Below are positions 5,354 through 60,862 of a DNA stretch of 64,000 nucleotides, one piece after another (the stretch's first letter is position 1; each line of letters starts with the position of its first letter). Position numbers and translations under genes: made by a program. Below the pieces are notes generated by a model. The model worked only from the letters and a program-made list of their open reading frames with translations. It was not told the origin of the DNA and ran no database searches. The stretch is from Ailanthus altissimus. Lineage: Eukaryota > Streptophyta > Magnoliopsida > Sapindales > Simaroubaceae. The stretch spans positions 15,534,501-15,598,500 of the forward strand of contig OX327690.1 of NCBI GenBank assembly GCA_946807835.1, written 5' to 3'.

Positions 5354-5525
5354 TCTGGAACCAATTGTAAAGGGCTGAGAAAAGCCTATCTTGCAACGCC
5401 TTGCTAACTCCAACTAACCAAGAGCTTGTTGTAGCCTTTATCATGTCTGAGATGTTAAGAGAAACTGGTTCCTTGACTAGAAATCTACCCATAGCGAAAG
5501 TTGCTAAAAACTTAAAAGAGCTCAT

Positions 5526-7073
5526 TGTTTACGCTGAAAATGTAATGCGGCTATCGCAGTATAGATTAAGGTGTTAATCTCACAAAGAATCTTTTGACAA
5601 AATAGGTTGGTGAAGTAAAATATTAAAACAGTAGCAAAAGAGAAAATTAATTAATTAGTTTAAGTGGATAAGATAGAATTGTTTATGCATTAAGGAAAAT
5701 GTTTTATGATGATGCAAGCAAGGCTTCGAGAATCACAATTATGCTTTATAAATCTACTCTACACTTTGATTCAATGTTTATAACTCAATTGAAAGTTTTA
5801 CATCCCAAACAATCAATTGGAAGATATGTAAAATATAGCACATTTGATAACACATGTATTTGATATGACTAAACTCTTTACAAACATTAACACAAATCAT
5901 GTTTATTTATACAAGTTATCTAAGATCGATAATATTGCAGTAAAAGATCAATTTGAATATTAAACAATTATTGTCTTTATATGTTATCCAAGATCGATAA
6001 TATATCGATTGACAATCTTGCAGTAAAAGATTAATATATAAAATAATGTAACCAATAATAATATAATTCAACGAGAATCACATAAAGAAAGCATGACTAA
6101 AAATATATGAAACGTGAGAATTATAACCTCTGAATTATAGAAAATAAAATAGATAAGAGTTTAAGCACAACCAAACTTACAAACATTTGTATTTTTTAAC
6201 AAAGAATCAATGCATAAAAGTAAGTTTATTAAATATAAAAGCTCATCTCTTAGCCTTATCAAGAATTCTAGCCTAGATTACAATGCATGTTAATGAGAAG
6301 GAAATAAGAGAGAATTGTCTAATGTTAAAAATGTCCTAAGAGTGTCCTTATATAGACAATGAATGGAAATATATTTAGTGTGACTTCAATCTTAAATAAT
6401 TTAGGCCAACCACTCGTTCACCCACTTGCAGCACCTTTTTGATAATGAAAATGACCGATGTAACCTTTTTGGCCGACATAAAATTTGTAGCATTTTGTCT
6501 CCTTTTTCCATAGCTATTAGGTTCATGCAAATTGGATGAGTATCCAATGCGATATGGGTAAAATTCCAAAGATATGTCATATTTCAAGCAATAACCCTTT
6601 TACCTATTTGCAATACAATTTGGTCCATAATAACAGCTGATTTGGACTTTACCATCAACATAAGAGTTGTTGATAATTAAGTCAATATTTCACAACTTTA
6701 ATAATTATACCAATTAGATACATATTTTGTGAAATACGGTCCAAATACATGAGTTGGGTCAAGCTGAATAGAAGTTGTAACCCAATTCTATTATATTTCA
6801 ATTTTTTGCCCATAACATGTTGGATTGGCTTTTTAATTATTCTTCAAATTTGTGTAAGATTGAGTCATGTTACTCTAGGTTCAAGAATTTCTTTATTTTG
6901 ATTTCTATATTGAGAGTTACATCTATTTTGCCTAAACCTATGCAAATAACATTCATTAATCATAATTTAAGGAGAACACTTTATTTTAAGCTAAAAATAC
7001 AAAAATGCTAAAATTAGTGACATTAAATGGTGACTAAATCTCTTAATAATTATGCATTTTTATATATTAATCA
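5526..7073 (-). mobile_element. Solo LTR, Athila-type family B
   Basis: This is a minus-strand copy of the LTR found at 50905-52462 and 59305-60862. Read on the minus strand it starts near TGATTAATATATAAAAATGC and ends AGCGTAAACA. It is 1548 bp against 1558 bp for the intact LTRs. It is flanked by a perfect 5-bp target duplication, ctcat, at 5521-5525 and 7074-7078. No internal sequence is attached, so it is a product of LTR-LTR recombination. It interrupts the interior of element I. Confidence 0.92.
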
Positions 7074-7637
7074 CTCATGTAGAGGTTTATCAAATATGCT
7101 TAGTGGAACACCTCAAAGTCACTAAATGGACAAACTAATAAAGATGTCCCAGTTACTTCAAGGCAGTTTGAAGAGTTCGCTAAGAAAAGGCATCATACAA
7201 CATCTAGTGACAACAGCGGCTAGAAGAGAACAAAGAAGTAAATTGGCAGGTAGACTTAGCTAGTCTCATCCCATACTCACCATGAAAAGATCTAGAAGTC
7301 GCTGTTTTCCTGAACCCCCACAAATTAGATAAGCCAATAAAATTAAGTCTCACTTTTATCACAACAAGAAGCTCTGGTCTACCATAGATACTAGGTCAAG
7401 AAGCATTAAGGACTATGAGTTTAAGCAACCTTTTAAGGGTCCGAGATTCACTAAATGCCAAACATTGAGCTTACAATGAGGTTAAGGCCATTGAGATGGA
7501 CAACACTGTTCACTAAGCTTCTGAAGAAGGTCGATACATTTAGCAAGATTTAGAAGATATCTATCAAGCAAAGGATATGTAGTGAACCCTTTTCCCATTG
7601 TAGAGACTAGATCCCATTTTGTTGCTAAGAACAGGAA

Positions 7638-50904: not shown

Positions 50905-52462
50905 TGATGAACACATAAAAATGCATGTTGTTAAGAGATTCAATCACCATTTAATGTCACTAATTTTAGTGTTTTCTGTATTTTTAACTTGAAATAAAGT
51001 ATTCTCCTTAAATTTTGATTAATGAATGTTATTTGGACAGGTTTAGGTAAACTGGACATAACTCTCAATGTAGAAATCGAAATGAAGAAATTCTTGAACC
51101 TGGTGCAACATGACTCAATCTTACACAAATTTGAAGAATAGTGGAAAAGCCAAATCCAACATGTTATGGGCCAAACATTGAGATACAACAAAATCGGACT
51201 ACAACTCTTACCCAGCTTGACCCAATTCACGTATTTGGACCGTATCTCACAAAATACGTACTCAATTGGTATAATTCTTGAAGCTGTGAATTTCTTACTT
51301 TACTATCAACAACTCGTATGTTTATGGTAAAGTCCAAATCAGCCGTTATCATAGACCAAATCGCATTGCAAGTGGGTAAAATAGTTGTTGGCCGAATTCT
51401 GATGTATCTTTGGAATTTTGCTCATATCTCATTGGATACTCATCCAATTTGCATGAAATCAGTGCCTATGGAAAGAAGAGTCAAAATTCTACAACTTTCA
51501 TGTCGGCTGCAGAAGCTGAATTGATCATTTACATTATCAAAAATGTGCTGCAAGTGGATACACGAGTTATTGGCTTAAAACTATTGAAGATTGATGTCAT
51601 CCATGACATATGTCCATTCATTGCCTATATAAGGAGACCCTTAGGACCTTTTTAATAGATAAAAATTTCTCTCTTCTTTTATTCTCATTAACATGTATTG
51701 TAATTTAGGCTAGAGTTCCTAGCAAGGCTAAGAGATGAACTTTTATGTGTAGTAAATCTACTTCCATGCTTTGATTCGGTGTCAAGAGCTATAAATGTTG
51801 TAAGTTTGATTTTGATTAAACTCTTATCTATTTTATTTTCTATAATCCAGAGGTTATAATTCTCATGTCTCATATATGTTCAGTCATGCTTTTCTTATGT
51901 GATTCATGTTGATTTATAATTGTTACTGGTTATATTGTTTTATATGTTAATCTTTTACTGCAGTATTGTCAATTTGATATATTGTCGATCTTGGATAACA
52001 TGTAAGGGCAATAAATGTTTGATATTCAAGTTAATCTTTTACTGCAATATTGTCAAAATGATATATTGTCGATCTTAGATAACTTGTATAAATAACATGA
52101 TGTGTGTTAATGCTTGCAAAGAGTTTAACTAAATCAAATACATGTGTTATCAAATGTGCTATATATTACATACCTTCCGATTGATTGTTTGGGATGTGAA
52201 ACTTTCAGTTGAGTTATAAATATCGAATCAAAGTATAGAGTAGATTTATAAAGCATAATTGTGATTCTCAAAGCCTTGCTTAAATCATCATAAAACATTT
52301 TCCTCAATTCATAGACAATTCTATCTCATCCGTTTAAATCAATTAACCCTTTGCTACTGCTTTAATATTTTACTTCACTAACCTATTTTGCCAAGAGCTT
52401 CCTCGTGGGATCGACACCTCAATCTATACTGCGATAGCCGCGTTATATTTTGAGCGTAAACA
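50905..52462 (+). repeat. 5' LTR of the Athila-type element
   Basis: TGATGAACACAT to GAGCGTAAACA, 1558 bp. It contains TTGCCTATATAAGGAGACCC (TATA-like, about 51620-51640), the expected promoter position. The ORFs at 50940-51230 (minus) and 51410-51655 are LTR artefacts repeated in the 3' LTR. Confidence 0.95.
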
Positions 52463-52468
52463 AAAATT

Positions 52469-52486
52469 TGGCGCCGTTGCCGGGGA
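52469..52486 (+). other. Primer-binding site, tRNA-Asp type
   Basis: TGGCGCCGTTGCCGGGGA, six bases after the LTR end. It is complementary to the 3' end of plant tRNA-Asp (from memory) and is the primer site known in Athila elements. Confidence 0.9.
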
Positions 52487-52602
52487 AGCACACTAAGCGA
52501 AAGTCGGTTGCGATTATAAATACTAAAGTGGTAACTTTGTATATTTTCTTTTCTTTGTAAACTTTTAGTTTTATTTCCTTTGTTGTAATTTATTTATTAT
52601 TT

Positions 52603-53118
52603 ATGGTTGGTTCTACCACCTAATTTATTTTGTTTTCTTTAGTTAATTTGTTATATTTTATATTATCTTAATGGCTGGTTTTGCCGCCTAATTAGTTTAT
52701 TTTATTTTATCTATTTATTGCACTTTATTTCTTATGGCTGGTTTTACCGCCTAACTTTGTTCACTTTCTTTTATTTATTTATTATACTTTATTTCTTTAG
52801 TTAATTTATTGTATTTTCTTTTTATTTTGTGGCTGGTTCTACCGCCTAACTTAGTTTCTTTATTTCGTATTGTACTCTATTTATTTATTGCACTTTTTTA
52901 TTGTACTTTATTTTCATTTTCTTTTACGTATTTATTGCAATTTATTTTCTTTAGTTAATATGTTGTATTTTTTTTTATGGCCGGTTCTACCGCCTAACCT
53001 TTTATTTATTTACTTATTGTATTTTCTTTTTATTATTTATTTATTGTACTTTTTTCGTATTTTATAGTCTTTTGTTTAGTTATTGTATTTATATTTCATG
53101 GTTGGTCTTACCACCTAA
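52603..53118 (+). repeat. Six spaced hairpin motifs in the leader (GGYYGGTNNTRCCRCC)
   Basis: Copies lie near 52606, 52673, 52737, 52831, 52979 and 53100. Each can fold as GGY-(Y)-GGU-loop-RCC-RCC, a six-pair stem with one bulged pyrimidine. Copies 1 and 6 have GGT...ACC where the others have GGC...GCC, a paired change. T-rich spacers of 47-132 bp separate them. All lie between the primer site and gag. Confidence 0.85.
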
Positions 53119-53206
53119 CTTATTTCTATTTCTTGTTGTGTTTATTTCCCTTCTTAATTTTCCTTAAGCATTTCTTTCCTTAAAAAAAAAAAAAAAATTA
53201 GGATGT

Positions 53207-56181
53207 ATGCATCGACCTAGAGACAAACGAGGAAGATTTGTGAGAGAACTAGAACTAGAACTAGAACCACCCCCACAATTTGTAAGTGAAGAGAATTCAC
53301 CTTCTAGTTCATCTTGTAATTCTAACACAATGAGCCAACACGAAGAAAACCCCGTTAGAACTCTAAAAGATTACTTGCATCCTACTCACACAGCCACACC
53401 ATCATGCATTATATTTCCACTTAACATACCACATTCGGATTTTAAACCTGGAATGATACAACTTCTTCCCACTTTTCATGGTCTAGATAGTGAAAATCCT
53501 TATGTACATGTTAGGGAATTTGAAGAGGTAATTGCCACCTTTCATAGCCAACCTGAAGCCATAGACACTGTTAGGCTTAAATTTTTCCCTTTTTCTTTGA
53601 AAGACAAAGCAAAGAGTTGGATATACTCTTTGAGGCTGAGGTCTATAGGAACTTGGGCAGAAATGACCCAAGCATTTTTCAATAAATACTTCCCACAACA
53701 CAAAACTAATGGCCTGAAAAGACAAATTTCTTCATTCTCCCAAAAAGACAGTGAAACCTTATATTAAGCATGGGAAAGGTTTAAAGAGTTGCTAAATCTG
53801 TGCCCTCACCATGGGTATGAAAATTGGCGCTTGGTTAGTTATTTCTATGAGGGACTCATAATTAGAGAGCGCCAATTTGTTGAGATGATGTGTAATGGGG
53901 AGTTCCTTCACAAAGATCCTGAGGAAGCTATAGAATTCCTTAATGACTTAGCCGAAAAAGCCCATACATGGACTGGACCTAGCATTACTGAAAGCACAAA
54001 TAGGTCACGACCCAATGGAGTTTTCCATCTTAGGGAAGAGGATAACCTCAAAGCCCAATTAGAGGTCTTAACTAGAGAGTTAGAGGCCTTGAAAACCAAA
54101 GATATAAGGGTCACCCACACGGTTGCTAAAGCTGAGTCACATGATGTCCGTTTTGTCTGTGGAGGAGCGGAACACTTAGCTCAAGATTGCCCCATATATA
54201 GTGAGATGAGAGGGATTTATGAGGAACAATGTAATGCCCTAGGGATGTACAAGAAGCCTTATTCACCCTACTCTGAAACATATAATCCTAACTGGAGAAA
54301 CCACCCAAATTTCAGTTGGAAATCTGACCAACAAGCCAACAACCAATGGAAACAAGAACAACAAGCACCCAAGTCTTATGTTGCACCTCAATATAATGCA
54401 CGACCAACTAGGAGTTCTTTAGAGGATACATTACAAGCATTTATGGAGGCACAAAGTAAGACTAATAAAAAATTTGAAACAATTCTTGCACAGGTGGTGG
54501 ACGAAAACAAAGAAATCAAGAGTCAAATCACAAAGTTGACCAGTGCCTTAACTGTACAAGAGCGAGGTAAGTTTCCATCTCAACCTCAATCCAATCCGAA
54601 AGGATAATTCATGGCACAAGCTTCTACTTCTGATGTTCAAAATCTCAAAGAAGTCAATGCCATTACTACTCGAAGTGGTAAGATTGTAAGTGAGCCTACT
54701 CCTGAAATTAACACATCTACGAGTAGTAAAGACGCCCCCCTTGAAAAAAAGGCCACAATGGAAAAAGAGCCCGAAAGTAAGTTTTCAATCCCAGTGCCTT
54801 TTTCTCAAGCTCTTCGACCGGTTGGGAAAAATTCAGAAATTCAAGGTGAGATTTTGGAACATTTGAAACAAGTTAAAATTAATCTTCCCTTGTTACATTT
54901 GATTAAGCAGGTTCCAACTTATGCCAAAGTCATCAAGGATTTATGCACTATCAAAAGAAACACCATGTGAAGAAAACTGCATTTTTGGCAGAACAGGTAA
55001 GTGCAGTGATTGAACAAAAGACACCACCCAAGTATAAAGACCCAGGATGTCCCACAATCTCCTGCCAAATTGGGGCACATGAGTTTGGTCAAGCTTTATT
55101 GGACTTAGGAGCAAGTGTAAATTTAATGCCTTATTCTATTTACTTGCAGTTAGGACTTGGTGAGATTAAACCAACCTCTGTAGTCTTACAATTAGCTGAC
55201 CGATCAATCAAGAAACCACGGGGAATAGTAGAAGATGTTTTGTTGCAAATTGACAAATTTTACTATCCTGTTGATTTTCTTGTTTTAAATACTCATTCTG
55301 TTGTTAATATGGAGTCAAAAATCCCTCTTATTTTGGGGAGACCTTTTCTTGCCACTGCTAATGCTCTTATTGATTGCAGAAATGGTCTAATGAAATTATC
55401 TTTTGGGAATATGACTCTTGAGGTGAACATTTTTCATATTGATAAGCAATCACGAGAAGAAGACGAATGCTATCATTCATATATGATAGACACACTTGGA
55501 GCGGAAGAAGCTTATAAAAATCATGGCTCTAATTCTTTAGAAAATCTCTTTGATTTTGATATTGAAGAATTGTATTATCCTGATGAAACAACTAATATGT
55601 TTAGTATTTTTGACTCACAGGATAAAGGGATGCGATTTTGGAAACCAGGCATTGAAAAGTTGCCATGTGAGAGGGAGAAACCAAAATCATCAAAACGCGA
55701 GACACCACGTGTCATCATTGGTGACCAAGGAACACATTTCAGTTCTAGAAAATCTCATAAAGCTTATTGGGCTGTCAAAGCCCTTAACTTTGATTTGAAT
55801 GCTGCAGGTCTTCAGAGAAAGTTACAATTGTCAGAAATAGAAGAGCTACGAAATGACGCATATGACAACTCCAGAATCTACAAAGCTAAAATGAAAGTAG
55901 CTCATGATAAACAGATCTCAAGGAAACACTTTGAGCCAAATCAACGGGTCTATCTTTATGATTCTCGATTGCATTTACACCCTGGAAAGTTGAGATCTCG
56001 ATGGACTGGTCCATTTATGGTAAGACATGTTTTTCCTAATGGTGCTGTTGAAATAGAAGACCCCACTGATGGACGAACTTTCAAAGTGAATGGACAGCGG
56101 CTAAAAAGCTACGTGGAAAAGGTAAACGACTCTATGTACCTAGGCGAGATCCCTCTTGTGGATCCTGTCTATCGTGATTGA
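53207..56181 (+). pseudogene. Athila-type gag-protease joined to integrase C-terminus
   Basis: Gag core in 53207-54607: FHGLDSENPYVHVREFEEV, then FFPFSLKDKAKSWIYSLR, FNKYFPQHKT, LLNLCPHHGYENW. The zinc knuckle near 54149-54190 reads CGGAEHLAQDC, with the first Cys codon as CGT (Arg). Protease is at 54943-55660, with active-site block LLDLGASVNLMP (Asp at 55102). At about 55700 the frame passes directly into integrase: IIGDQGTHF, a second join near 55745, HKAYWAVKALNFDLN and the C-terminal GPFMVRHVFPNGAVEIEDP. RT, RNase H and most of the integrase core are gone. Breaks: in-frame TAA at 53765 and 54605 and a one-base loss in an A run near 54960. The 412-codon frame 54943-56181 is open. Enzymatically dead apart from possible gag or protease. 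Confidence 0.92.
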
Positions 56182-56287
56182 TCAGGTTCAATCTATCTGT
56201 ACCATATTTTATATTTTGTCTATATTTTATCTTTTGACTTTCTATTTTTGCTTTTATTTTCCTGCACATTTTATTTTACTTTATTTT

Positions 56288-56309
56288 CTTCTTTTTATTT
56301 TTTCTTCAG
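56288..56309 (+). promoter_or_regulatory. Candidate 3' splice site upstream of the cargo ORFs
   Basis: A pyrimidine-dominated run (CTTCTTTTTATTTTTTCTTCAG) ends in CAG 121 bases before the ATG of the cysteine-rich ORF. In retroelements with an env-like third ORF, a spliced subgenomic RNA is one known expression route. No matching donor was established here. Confidence 0.35.
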
Positions 56310-56429
56310 TGTGATTTTATTTCCTGGTCAAGTGGCGGATACGGTACTCCGTGACTATTAAAGTCGGTTTCTCAGTACCCTAAAAACTGTCCCTCAAACT
56401 GTGCATTCATCTCTTTTCTTTCTTTCAAA

Positions 56430-56978
56430 ATGGATCACATTCTTGCCAACCTTAAAAAACGTTTTCCTTCATTTCCTCAAAATGCTCTACTTAAGATTTA
56501 CAAAGCACGGTGTGAAAGACTAAGGCTATTGATGTTGTGTAATATCCCTGTGGACCTTCGTTGGTTAATTGAAGCCAAGGTTCGGTTGTCTGGTGAGTTT
56601 GAAAATGATTTTGTTTCTCATATGCCTGGTCTTGGAAGAAGCTCTTATGCCAAAAGGCGACGAGCAAAAAGGTTACAAGTCTGTCATAAATGTGCTCGAT
56701 GAAATTGTAATCGGAGTTGTCGTTCTTTAGGATTCGTATCTAGAAATCGAGAAGACAAAATTCAGTTCATTAAGGATGGACTGAGTAAGGAGTCTTTGGA
56801 TGATATCCTATTGACTCTTGAGACGCATCCCTGTGGGCTCGTGCAACGTGAACTTCTCGATTTATGGAACAAATTCAAAAATGAACATCAACGGTATAGT
56901 CTCGAGAATCTGACTCTAAAAGACCCTGTTTGCCAATTTATAAGAAAATTGGATGGGAAGCCTATCCCCGACTCATAG
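56430..56978 (+). pseudogene. Cysteine-rich, basic ORF resembling carlavirus-type nucleic-acid-binding protein
   Basis: 182 codons plus stop in one frame, with a single internal TGA at codon 91 (56700). A helical N-terminal part is followed by a strongly basic segment at codons 69-81 (G-R-S-S-Y-A then K/R-rich). Immediately after comes a zinc-finger-like set Cys85-x2-Cys88-x4-Cys93-x3-Cys97, with the internal stop lying inside it. The G-R-S-x-Y-A-x-R-R-R-A block placed just before Cys-x2-Cys is the signature I associate with the small nucleic-acid-binding proteins of carlaviruses and relatives (Betaflexiviridae), which act in RNA binding and host interference. The C-terminal half is unfamiliar. 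It sits between integrase and LOG, in sense. It could instead be an element-derived or host zinc-finger ORF. It is broken as it stands. Confidence 0.5.
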
Positions 56979-57232
56979 AGGGCGTTTAAGCCGTTACTGG
57001 ACGTAAAACCAGAGGAAGATGTGAGCCACAATCACAACTACTTGTAAATACATGTGTTTTAATTTCAAACTTTATTTTATGAATAGTAGGGCTACTCATG
57101 TAGATGTCTTAAATTCAAATCTTTTTGTTTAATAATGCATGTGGGTCATTATGTTTAAATTTTTGTGTTTTATTTTTAACTCTTTTTGACAAACTGTCGG
57201 GTTACCATAATCATTGTTATCATTTGGCACTC

Positions 57233-57240
57233 TATAAATA
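57233..57240 (+). promoter_or_regulatory. TATA-like box 53 bp upstream of the LOG ATG
   Basis: TATAAATA within CACTCTATAAATACAGC, followed by a pyrimidine/purine leader of plant 5'-UTR character up to the ATG at 57293. Spacing fits a core promoter, but an AT-rich chance match is possible. Confidence 0.4.
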
Positions 57241-57292
57241 CAGCACCTCAGTTTCTTCATTTTCATATATTGAGATAAAGGTGAGAGTAGAT

Positions 57293-57940
57293 ATGGAGGA
57301 AACCCAAGTTTGATAATTTTGAAATATATGTGTATTTTGTGGATCTAGTCCTGGGGAGAGTAAAGTGTTCGTAGAAGCAGCAAACAATCTAGGAAAAACA
57401 TTAGCTGCAAGAAAAATTCATTTGATTTATGGAGGAGGTAGCCTTAGGCTAATGGGGTGTGTGTCAACAGCTGCACATTTAGGAGGAAGTCAAGTTTTAG
57501 GTATTATTCCTACAGCTTTGGCCGTGGGAAACCTGACCGGGAAAACAATAGGGGAAGAATTACAAGTCTCATCCATGCATGAACGTATAGCCAGAATGCT
57601 TTGCAATGCAGACGCTTTTATTGCTTTACCAGGTGGTTTTGGTACCTTGGAAGAAATTTTTCAAATTGTCTCTTAGGCCCAACTGAATATCCACCGAAAA
57701 CCCATAGGTTTGTTGAATGTTAATAACTATTTTGATTGCTTACTTTGTTTTCTTGATCAAGCTGTGGAACAGAATTTTATTTCACATTCGGCGCGACATA
57801 TCCTGGTTTCTGCTACTGAGGCGGATGAATTGATTAACAAATTACAGGCAGTTACCTACGAACCTGACCCAGCAATAACTCGGATCGATTGGTCAGTGGG
57901 CCTTAACAAGCGAAAATTGGATCTGACACTCCGTTTGTAA
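57293..57940 (+). pseudogene. LOG: LONELY GUY-type cytokinin riboside 5'-monophosphate phosphoribohydrolase, uninterrupted copy inside the retroelement
   Basis: 215 codons plus stop, the usual LOG length, in one frame without introns or indels. Recognisable blocks: N-terminal CVFCGSSPG, YGGGS at codons 46-50, LMG, VLGIIP, the P-G-G-x-G-T-x-x-E motif at 113-121 (PGGFGTLEE), AQLNIHRKPIGLLNV, and a C-terminal tail ending KLDLTLRL. Known role: releases active cytokinin base from its nucleotide in the cytosol and nucleus. Nonsense codons are at 57311, 57314, 57320 and 57674 (TAG where the family has Trp). Codon 52 is Arg where the family has Gly. Plant LOG genes usually have several introns, so this looks like an mRNA-derived copy. 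It lies in element sense between the integrase tail and the 3' LTR. It is non-coding as it stands unless stops are read through. Confidence 0.93.
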
Positions 57941-59304
57941 ATTTTTCTTTTTATTTATTTATTTATCAGTACCATCATTTTAGTTTATATTTGCTTAAGT
58001 GTCTCTCAGGTTTGTTTCTTTCAAATAACTGGCGTTTCAGGTAATGTCTCCTATACTTTATCTCTTTCTATTTAAACATTGAGGATAATGTTTCATCTGG
58101 TTTGGGGGGAGAATAGTAGACATACGTTGCATTTTGCAAAAAAAAAAAAAAAAATTGTGGTCCGACATTTGATTAAAATGGCTAGTAAAGAGTTCATTCT
58201 TGAACTCTTGAGACGCATTCTAGGTCAAATTAGAATGGCAGAGTAAGGAGTTTTAGTACTAACTTTTGAAATGCATTTTAACTAACTTTTTGTTATTTTG
58301 TTTTATATTTCATGCATTGTCGTTTACTGCTTGTAGTCTTGGTAATTCTTGTATAAAGGAATTTGCTTTTCTGCCTAAGTATGATTTCAGAATTGTTTAG
58401 GTTGAGTCACTGTTTCTATCTAGGTTACTAAAGAATGACTTCCAAAATATTTTTGAGCACAATGCTAAGCCTTGTGGTAAGATGGATGATTCAATTTATA
58501 TAGCCAAGAGAATTCTCATGTTTAAGTATATATTTTTCTAATCTCGCATATCTTTTGTGAGTAAGTGGAAAGGTTGAGAAAACAGCTTATGAACCTTCAT
58601 TGATCCTTTGAATTGGTTAATTTTTGTTTAGAATGATATTATTTGAATTAAGGGATAAGTTGGTTACATTTGTGCATAATATAATTTGGTGAGAAACCTT
58701 TATAATGCTTCCTTGTATTCTTCAAAAATCCAAAAAAAAAAAAAAAAAAAACACACAAAAGTACCAAAAACAAGAAAAAAAAAAAAAGCAATTCAGTTTA
58801 ATAAAGTCTTCATTCAATTTTAGAAGACAAATACCTTGTAAAACAGTTTTCTCACCAAGTTATAATTGTATTATTCTCACAAGCCAATTAAAGTTCTAAA
58901 GTTGGCGTATGATATGAATAATTGATTTTTAAACAAATAATTTTCCTATCTTCGGATCAATGTTAGTTTATATGTCTGTCCTTAAAATTGACTTTTCCTT
59001 GAGTGCTTAACTATTTTCCAACTCCATAAGAGAAGTCCTAACCTTTTAAACAGTCATACACCTGTGAGGATATGGAGTTGAGGTTTTTACTTGGAGAAAT
59101 TCTCAAGGCTATATCTATTGTGGTTTGTGGTTAGATGGTTATGGCTTAGTTCACACACACACAAATTATAGAAGTTGTAATTGAAAAAACCATGATAGCA
59201 ACAGTGATCTCGAACTAACGTTTTGATTGAAATGCTTAGGTAGTTTTGCATATTCTATTTACGCTTGAATTGCTAGAGACTAGCAATAAGCTGGTTGGGG
59301 GCTG
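57941..59304 (+). other. Athila 3' region with poly(A) tracts and polypurine tract
   Basis: TTGAGGATAATGTTTCATCTGG followed by TTTGGGGGGAG (58079-58113) is the post-coding landmark I associate with Athila elements. A-runs lie at 58138-58155 and 58731-58751. GCTGGTTGGGGGCTG directly precedes the 3' LTR and is the likely plus-strand primer. No env-like ORF or membrane segment is seen. Confidence 0.65.
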
Positions 59305-60862
59305 TGATGAACACATGAAAATGCATGTTGTTAAGAGATTCAATCACCATTTAATGTCACTAATTTTAGTGTTTTCTGTATTTTTAGATTGAAATAAAGT
59401 GTTCTCCTTAAATTGTGATTAATGAATGTTATTTGGACAAGTTTAGGTAAACTGGACATAACTCTCAATGTAGAAATCAAAATGAAGAAATTCTTGAACT
59501 TGGTGCAACATGACTCAATCTTACACAAATTTGAAGAATAGTGGAAAAGCCAAATCCAACATGTTATGGGCCAAAAATTGAGATACAACAAAATCGGACT
59601 ACAACTCTTACCCAGCTTGACCCAATTCACGTATTTGGACCGTATCTCACAAAATACGTACTCAATTGGTATAATTCTTGAAGCTGTGAATTTCTTACTT
59701 TACTATCAACAACTCGTATGTTTATTGTAAAGTCCAAATCAGCCGTTATCATGGACCAAATCGCATTGCAAGTGGGTAAAATGGTTGTTGGCCGAATTCT
59801 GATGTATCTTTGGAATTTTGCTCATATCTCATTGGATACTCATCCAATTTGCATGAAATCAGTGCCTATGGAAAGAAGAGTCAAAATTCTACAACTTTCA
59901 TGTCGGCTGCAGAAGCTGAATTAATCATTTACATTATCAAAAATGTGCTGCAAGTGGATACACGAGTTATTGGCTTAAAACTATTGAAGATTGATGTCAT
60001 CCATGACATATGTCCATTCATTGCCTATATAAGGAGACCCTTAGGACCTTTTTAATAGATAAAAATTTCTCTCTTCTTTTATTCTCATTAACATGTATTG
60101 TAATTTAGGCTAGAGTTCCTAGCAAGGCTAAGAGATGAACTTTTATGTGTAGTAAATCTACTTCCATGCTTTGATTCGGTGTCAAGAGCTATAAATGTTG
60201 TAAGTTTGATTTTGATTAAACTCTTATCTATTTTATTTTCTATAATCCAGAGGTTATAATTCTCATGTCTCATATATGTTCAGTCATGCTTTTCTTATGT
60301 GATTCATGTTGATTTATAATTGTTACTGGTTATATTGTTTTATATGTTAATCTTTTACTGCAGTATTGTCAATTTGATATATTGTCGATCTTGGATAACA
60401 TGTAAGGGCAATAAATGTTTGATATTCAAGTTAATCTTTTACTGCAATATTGTCAAAATGATATATTGTCGATCTTAGATAACTTGTATAAATAACATGA
60501 TGTGTGTTAATGCTTGCAAAGAGTTTAACTAAATCAAATACATGTGTTATCAAATGTGCTATATATTACATACCTTCCGATTGATTGTTTGGGATGTGAA
60601 ACTTTCAGTTGAGTTATAAATATCGAATCAAAGTATAGAGTAGATTTATAAAGCATAATTGTGATTCTCAAAGCCTTGCTTAAATCATCATAAAACATTT
60701 TCCTCAATTCATAGACAATTCTATCTCATCCGTTTAAATCAATTAACCCTTTGCTACTGCTTTAATATTTTACTTCACTAACCTATTTTGCCAAGAGCTT
60801 CCTCGTGGGATCGACACCTCAATCTATACTGCGATAGCCGCGTTATATTTTGAGCGTAAACA
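59305..60862 (+). repeat. 3' LTR of the Athila-type element
   Basis: Same length as the 5' LTR with an exact 8400-bp offset and no indels. All 13 differences lie in the first 619 bp; the remaining 939 bp are identical to the 5' LTR. Confidence 0.95.

Follow-up and report, generated by a model that had tools for sequence, protein, structure and literature searches.

A stretch of 64,000 nucleotides from Ailanthus altissimus (contig OX327690.1, positions 15,534,501 to 15,598,500; hereafter the window) contains a long terminal repeat (LTR) retrotransposon that bears a gene of the plant LONELY GUY (LOG) family, and the question raised by this locus is whether such a gene is a chance passenger, a cytokinin-activating enzyme in the service of the element, or something else. 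The data assembled here indicate that the element-borne gene (retro-LOG) is old, lacks introns, is preceded by a conserved TATA box and has been maintained in the elements by purifying selection. Judged from its sequence, it is probably a maintained gene of the element whose product is a nuclear recruiter of co-repressors rather than a plain cytokinin enzyme. The particular LOG copy found in the window is broken, and the surrounding element, an Athila-type LTR retrotransposon, has decayed and is non-autonomous.

The frame at 57293-57940 is recognizable as LOG along its entire length, lacks introns, and lies on the sense strand of the element, 3' of an integrase remnant and 5' of the 3' LTR. 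It is interrupted by in-frame stops at codons 7, 8, 10 and 128 (57311, 57314, 57320 and 57674) and by no frameshift; the portion 3' of the first three stops, read with X at the fourth, matches Pfam Lysine_decarbox at 9.9e-38 and is 98% identical to a full-length protein. The original prediction, made from the letters of the window, of a full-length, intron-free LOG frame carried by an LTR element is confirmed, and its description of point nonsense changes without frameshift holds, as does its figure of about 99% identity between the LTRs, measured at 99.17%.

The window copy is one of many. A PF03641 search of the host assembly (939 Mb) returned 4943 first-look candidates, of which the best 150, distributed by our count over 32 contigs of the one genome, were scored; all 150 lay over the cut-off and were stop-free inside the domain, a proportion that provides no estimate of the intact share because open frames rank higher by score. 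When AtLOG3 (P0241) served as the query, we counted stops in 12 of the best 150 of 5682 candidates. Forty genome pieces taken from the high-scoring lists could be sorted into three families: A, to which the window copy belongs (21 pieces), B (6) and C (13). An open LOG frame of 215 residues or more is present in 20/21, 5/6 and 12/13, respectively, two of the family C counts taking in residues ahead of the start codon. Within family A, LOG DNA is 96.8-98.9% identical to that of the window. In one A copy and one B copy, matches to protease, integrase and NABP (a flexivirus-type protein considered below) precede LOG in that order within long frames. Family C is organized differently from these NABP-bearing families: no NABP match was found in any of its 13 pieces as fetched, and the 4.4 kb 5' of LOG in one copy, searched for gag, protease, integrase and NABP, gave no match to any of them. 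LOG is there preceded by a 422-residue frame (L059:1036-2301), also read in a second copy, for which no Pfam match was obtained; an LDLSL stretch lies within this frame. A family C copy is flanked by direct repeats of at least 1952 bp that are 100% identical and that we read as LTRs; retro-LOG would be carried here by a second kind of element besides families A and B. Pairs of family C LOGs lie 6.55-6.62 kb apart on contigs C5, C17 and C27, which suggests tandem units, and because of this spacing the family may be a tandem array of another kind. A search for LOG in further element copies had been proposed originally, and all three families among the 40 pieces carry it in element context. A splice-donor-like GGTGAG stands directly 5' of the LOG ATG in the window (57280-57285) and in representatives of families A, B and C, one of three family C copies reading GGTGGG.

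That the frame has been maintained is indicated by comparisons between families, each represented by one copy. The ratio of nonsynonymous to synonymous substitution rates (dN/dS) is 0.235 for A-C (bootstrap 0.13-0.35), 0.305 for B-C (bootstrap 0.20-0.46) and 0.106 for A-B, the last with dS near saturation (296/400 bootstraps usable). Inside families A, B and C the corresponding ratio of differences (pN/pS) is 0.32, 0.38 and 0.15, values biased by the choice of copies. With dN/dS between families of 0.11-0.31, well below 1, the sequences indicate past purifying selection on the retro-LOG frame, one of the two histories that the original prediction had put forward.

The function for which the frame was kept may be approached through its pocket residues. 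In the LOG of C. glutamicum (CgLOG), catalysis is proposed to depend on the pair Arg99 and Glu122; Lys100 belongs to the adenine and prenyl sites and Glu125 to the prenyl site, and changing AMP-site residues to alanine, Ser19 excepted, leads to near-total loss of activity (PMC4979012, in the parts drawn on here). The CgLOG numbering was transferred through shared motifs to a LOG of P. aeruginosa, which served as the reference in the alignment in place of CgLOG. Of the 113 retro-LOGs of the main clade, 107 retain Arg99 and 112 Glu122, but one retains Lys100 and none Glu125; all four residues are kept in 112/112 ordinary LOGs, a set picked by likeness to ordinary LOGs, and in 6/6 basal relatives. 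The profile used for the ordinary set took in two basal retro-type sequences, and the hits P0242 and P0282 were removed for the 112-row counts. The pieces from the same genome agree, with Gln at site 125 in 40/40, Ile or Met at site 100 in 39/39 readable, Glu122 in 40/40 and Arg99 in 39/39 readable. The retro-LOG protein, ~46-52% identical to the Arabidopsis LOG3 type, keeps PGGxGTxxE in most members, and its predicted model has the LOG fold by Foldseek, with a predicted local distance difference test (pLDDT) score of 87. What retro-LOG has in common with plant type-I LONELY GUY proteins (AtLOG3, AtLOG8) is therefore the fold, this motif and the catalytic Arg and Glu, whereas Lys100 and Glu125 are replaced, the tail is new and introns are lacking. 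The label "cytokinin-activating" in the original prediction is not supported as such, since both of these adenine/prenyl-pocket residues are replaced almost everywhere.

The tail provides the second line of evidence. LxLxL, a motif of the ethylene-responsive element binding factor-associated amphiphilic repression (EAR) type, stands at the extreme C-terminus of 98/113 retro-LOGs, with DLNxxP in one more, and a basic cluster lies within the last 24 residues of 104/113. The same LxLxL occurs in 2.4% of own-residue shuffles and at the C-terminus of 0/114 ordinary LOGs, two basal retro-type rows included. When the proteins are grouped into lineages at 80% identity, LxLxL is present in at least one member of 20/25, the other five comprising one with DLNLTP, two with early ends, one apparently shifted and one ending in KKRKFM; when the tail is left out of tree building, four changes are needed to account for the presence of EAR. 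An EAR-type tail is found in 37/40 of the copies from the same genome, including KKRKIDLNLTP, of the other EAR type, in 11/13 of family C, and the leucine codons of the tail differ among families A, B and C. In the predicted LOG model the last two blocks have pLDDT values of 48 and 52, values that a free linear motif would be expected to show. In basal relatives the basic stretch is present, EAR is lacking and Lys100 is retained, and in P0119 EAR occurs together with Lys100; these intermediates suggest the order basic tail, then EAR, then pocket change. Terminal LxLxL or DLNxxP motifs like those of retro-LOG are known in EAR proteins that recruit TOPLESS, for example the repression domain of SUPERMAN (PMC6479872) and the effector HaRxL21 (PMC7446885), and in the sections cited of the former the minimal SUPERMAN motif is DLELRL, one residue apart from DLTLRL in the window. 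In contrast to these proteins, the motif of retro-LOG sits on a LOG domain in a retrotransposon, and its binding of TOPLESS is putative.

Retro-LOG probably also has its own promoter, because a TATA box recurs in families A, B and C. In the window, CTATAAATA is found at 57232-57240, 52 bp 5' of the LOG ATG, with 6 matches in the window against 3.0 expected; a TATAWA box stands at -60 in 21/21 A pieces, at -73 in 5/6 B pieces and at -68 in 9/10 C pieces tested, the family C scan having covered 10/13 pieces.

Regarding its origin, a search of the host for ordinary LOGs by the pattern MH[Q/E]RKAEM gave 15 sites (reversed control, 0). None of the 15 loci aligns to ordinary LOGs as a single block; each alignment is split into several pieces, and the breaks recur near residues 42, 74, 85, 118, 142 and 189; L074 and L075 are less clear, having longer open frames of 195 and 149 aa. 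Since retro-LOG is one uninterrupted frame and the host loci are in pieces, entry through RNA with loss of introns is likely, in keeping with what had first been supposed. A recent capture, the other history originally considered, is not supported, in view of a single retro-LOG clade that reaches both rosids and asterids. This clade has support of 99/97 against 30 ordinary LOGs, and the ordinary LOGs, one gymnosperm's included, cluster separately (85/90). The tree comprised 29 of the 113 main-clade, 5 basal, 30 ordinary and 2 bacterial rows; the fused models P0002, P0003 and P0045 were excluded from residue counts and trees, and P0028 from an earlier tree. Copies from the same genome did not enter the trees, in which their nearest proteins are P0001 (21/40), P0112 (13) and P0044 (6). 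The long branch leading to the clade makes the position of its root among plant LOGs uncertain. Relatives of the window LOG among the 120 matches listed include members from Xanthoceras, Melia, Reevesia, Diplodiscus, Populus, Parasponia, Paulownia and Primulina, five of the relatives being placed in Sapindales, Malvales, Malpighiales, Rosales and Lamiales; Reevesia accounts for 26/120 of those listed, on 15 named chromosomes by our count. In a Xanthoceras gene model, LOG is joined to a stretch resembling the window gag-protease (E 1e-4, a single comparison). LOGL4-like / YgdH extra open reading frames (ORFs) in Athila-like elements were reportedly noticed by Steinbauerova in 2011. A LOG domain has been published in LTR-element consensuses of Citrus sinensis and C. 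clementina and, without filter, of Populus trichocarpa (PMC9289625, as far as the portion used here extends), so that LOG capture by such elements is not in itself new.

The window element spans 50905-60862. It is compared in places with L001, a plant-like contig filed under a bacterial metagenome-assembled genome (MAG), which has an integrase and an open NABP-like gene and is without LOG. The features of the element are as follows.

50905..52462, plus strand: 5' LTR (TG...CA), 99.17% identity to the 3' LTR, ends read
52469..52486, plus strand: primer-binding site TGGCGCCGTTGCCGGGGA, sequence read
53168..54967, plus strand: gag region, frame broken by in-frame stops; Retrotrans_gag 2.9e-12 within 53207-53767
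54907..55704, plus strand: protease region; Asp_protease_2 2.0e-4, 22.5 bits, slightly under the cut-off of 24.3
55705..56178, plus strand: integrase remnant, by match to the L001 integrase frame
56430..56978, plus strand: NABP-like zinc-finger frame (Carla_C4 / Viral_NABP), one in-frame stop at 56700-56702
56976..57050, plus strand: conserved 75-nt block, starting with the stop codon of the NABP-like frame; 72/75 identical to L001
57054..58034, plus strand: LOG cassette, not in L001 (limits approximate); L001 homology ends at ~57053-57076 and restarts at 58035
57232..57240, plus strand: TATA box CTATAAATA 5' of LOG
57293..57940, plus strand: retro-LOG frame, four in-frame stops
57908..57937, plus strand: C-terminal basic stretch and LxLxL (EAR-type) motif, KRKLDLTLRL
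59293..59304, plus strand: polypurine tract, by our reading of the sequence
59305..60862, plus strand: 3' LTR, 99.17% identity to the 5' LTR

The two LTRs differ at 13/1559 positions (9 transitions, 4 transversions, no gaps), and their 5-bp flanks, ATTAT and ACCAT, differ, so that no matching target duplication surrounds the element. The internal order is gag, protease, integrase fragment, NABP-like frame and LOG; in a 424-aa frame at 54907-56181 the protease passes directly into the integrase tail, and reverse transcriptase, RNase H and most of the integrase are gone. These losses, the broken gag and the mismatch of the flanks do not figure in the original prediction. An LTR pair, a primer-binding site and a polypurine tract are all present, as in the Athila lineage of Ty3/gypsy. 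The primer-binding site is one that we take to be of the Athila-like tRNA-Asp type, and assignment of the element to Athila is putative, made from the layout, this type of primer-binding site and the published LOG-bearing Athila-like elements. A related LTR, 84% identical to those of the window element, lies at 5525-7074 on the minus strand. Around the LOG cassette an 8-bp repeat, TTGTAAAT, occurs at 57042 and 57935; as a target duplication or microhomology it is no better than chance, 414/2000 random pairs being equally good. The sole Rfam match at gathering scores is a full-length snoR71 at 53711-53817 on the minus strand, antisense in gag (66.3 bits, 3e-12). Elsewhere in the window, the ORF at 2064-2564 has a MEKHLA-domain match slightly under the cut-off and is possibly a piece of an HD-ZIP III gene.

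The frame that precedes LOG, which was absent from the original prediction, encodes a Cys-rich, basic protein of 182 codons. Its first piece matches Carla_C4 (1.1e-5) and Viral_NABP (7.4e-5), both over the cut-off, and has 145 relatives at E<=0.001, Populus included; its second piece has solely a weak match to another family, under the cut-off (E 0.044). Carla_C4 and Viral_NABP match 25 and 23, respectively, of 29 NABP-like members at E<=0.1. A basic stretch and a Cys-rich finger are common to this protein and the flexivirus NABPs, from which it differs in being encoded by a retrotransposon. The NABP-like DNA lies 5' of LOG in 21/21 A pieces (one partial) and 6/6 B pieces; the frame is readable in 20 A and 5 B pieces and open to its end in 17 and 5. 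Against L001 its dN/dS is 0.19 in the coding frame and >1 in the two other frames, and among A, B and L001 it is 0.18-0.20. L001, deposited under a Candidatus Nomurabacteria MAG, is apparently contaminating plant retrotransposon DNA, and the break and restart of its homology around the LOG cassette indicate one case in which NABP exists without LOG. The conserved block that follows the frame, matching L001 at 72/75 positions, is 96-97% identical to family B over 72 nt, as against ~76-79% for the coding part, and is open in the NABP-like frame for 22 codons. It may represent read-through or an RNA signal; its predicted RNA structure is not significant (z -0.89). A PHROGs search gave no match for the NABP-like protein, and a scan of viral contigs with LOG, the NABP alignment and the conserved block gave no relative.

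The explanation that we hold with moderate confidence is that of a decayed Athila-type copy with two accessory genes, one of them a selected retro-LOG with a putative co-repressor-recruiting tail. This model proposes that two genes of the element family, retro-LOG and one for a zinc-finger protein akin to flexivirus NABP, occupy the space 3' of pol and 5' of the 3' LTR; that retro-LOG would be transcribed from its own promoter and give a nuclear protein; that this protein would bind an adenine-nucleotide-like ligand, no longer the standard cytokinin nucleotide; and that its tail would recruit TOPLESS-type co-repressors, to the benefit of the element. That a nuclear, nucleotide-binding retro-LOG with its own promoter, as a putative TOPLESS recruiter, forms with the RNA-virus-type NABP gene a two-gene module for manipulation of the host can be advanced only tentatively. 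Retro-LOG could instead still be a cytokinin-activating phosphoribohydrolase, by which the element raises active cytokinin in the cells that express it, the tail merely localising the protein. The LOG fold of the model, the purifying selection and the retention of catalytic Arg99/Glu122 and PGGxGTxxE in most members would all suit such an enzyme. However, replacement of Lys100 and Glu125 in nearly all proteins makes this unlikely, Lys100 being part of the adenine/prenyl sites and alanine changes in the AMP site nearly abolishing activity in the bacterial enzyme (PMC4979012, within the part cited).

It is also possible to regard LOG as a functionless passenger, captured by chance and amplified along with the element, and its lack in the NABP-bearing L001 and its broken state in the window agree with this. 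Yet dN/dS of 0.11-0.31 between families, a conserved tail and TATA box, and the presence of LOG in three element families render a passenger quite improbable. The transcript might chiefly give rise to small RNAs directed at the LOG genes of the host, or act as a decoy, roles for which the huge copy number (4943 first-look candidates) would be suited. However, selection acts on the protein, and at ~46-52% protein identity to the LOG3 type long matches to host LOG mRNA would be unlikely, as judged from the protein, which leaves a small-RNA role highly improbable. Some members of the clade are annotated as LOG genes, as they would be if the clade were an ordinary host paralogue with elements as chance neighbours; such an account is contradicted in this genome and is scarcely credible, given that the copies are intron-free and dispersed over 32 contigs, follow integrase and NABP in families A and B and are flanked in family C by direct repeats resembling LTRs, and given that the ordinary host LOGs, of the MHxRKAEM type, are 15 loci aligning in pieces.

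Several observations nonetheless weigh against the preferred explanation of a maintained, co-repressor-recruiting retro-LOG beside an NABP-type gene. Element context in DNA comes from this genome and L001 alone, and L001 has NABP without LOG. Choosing copies by score favours open frames and lowers pN/pS, and the between-family dN/dS is built on one copy per family. Retention of Arg99, Glu122 and PGGxGTxxE is compatible with some remaining catalysis, and the uniformity of the ordinary LOGs (112/112) is partly by choice. The LxLxL motif is not sufficient for TOPLESS binding, as ten other LxLxL effectors failed to bind TOPLESS (PMC7446885, in the section concerned). The NABP homology depends on modest Pfam scores (best 2.7e-8), L001 is over the cut-off for Viral_NABP only (Carla_C4 19.8 against a cut-off of 20.9), the predicted NABP model is poor (pLDDT 47.6), and no solved structure matches the NABP-like protein below E 0.05.

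The published LOG-bearing Athila-like elements resemble the present one in having a LOG-domain frame in Ty3/gypsy; the available part of that report (PMC9289625) mentions neither the altered pocket and the basic/EAR tail nor a TATA box of the gene's own, an estimate of selection or an NABP-like neighbour. The same portion describes AlkB-bearing Gypsy elements of orchids, in which, as with retro-LOG, a host-type enzyme is retained as an extra retrotransposon gene; AlkB is a different enzyme and is active in vitro. Among the matches listed in a full-text search of open-licence PMC, taken by their titles and abstract starts, none concerned retro-LOG tails or a retrotransposon NABP. What is new here is the genome-wide number with its three families, the pocket change and tail combined in one old clade, the TATA box, and the NABP-like neighbour.

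Few of the extra ORFs found in plant retrotransposons have a known use, and retro-LOG is one that is open in many copies and has been under purifying selection. Its tail is a short motif of the kind used by some pathogen effectors; should it work, transposons as well as pathogens would hijack TOPLESS. The presence of the NABP-like gene next to it suggests that genes have passed between RNA viruses of plants and retrotransposons, whichever the direction. If the proposed explanation is true, "cytokinin enzyme" would be the wrong name for those members of the clade that carry such an annotation in plant genomes.
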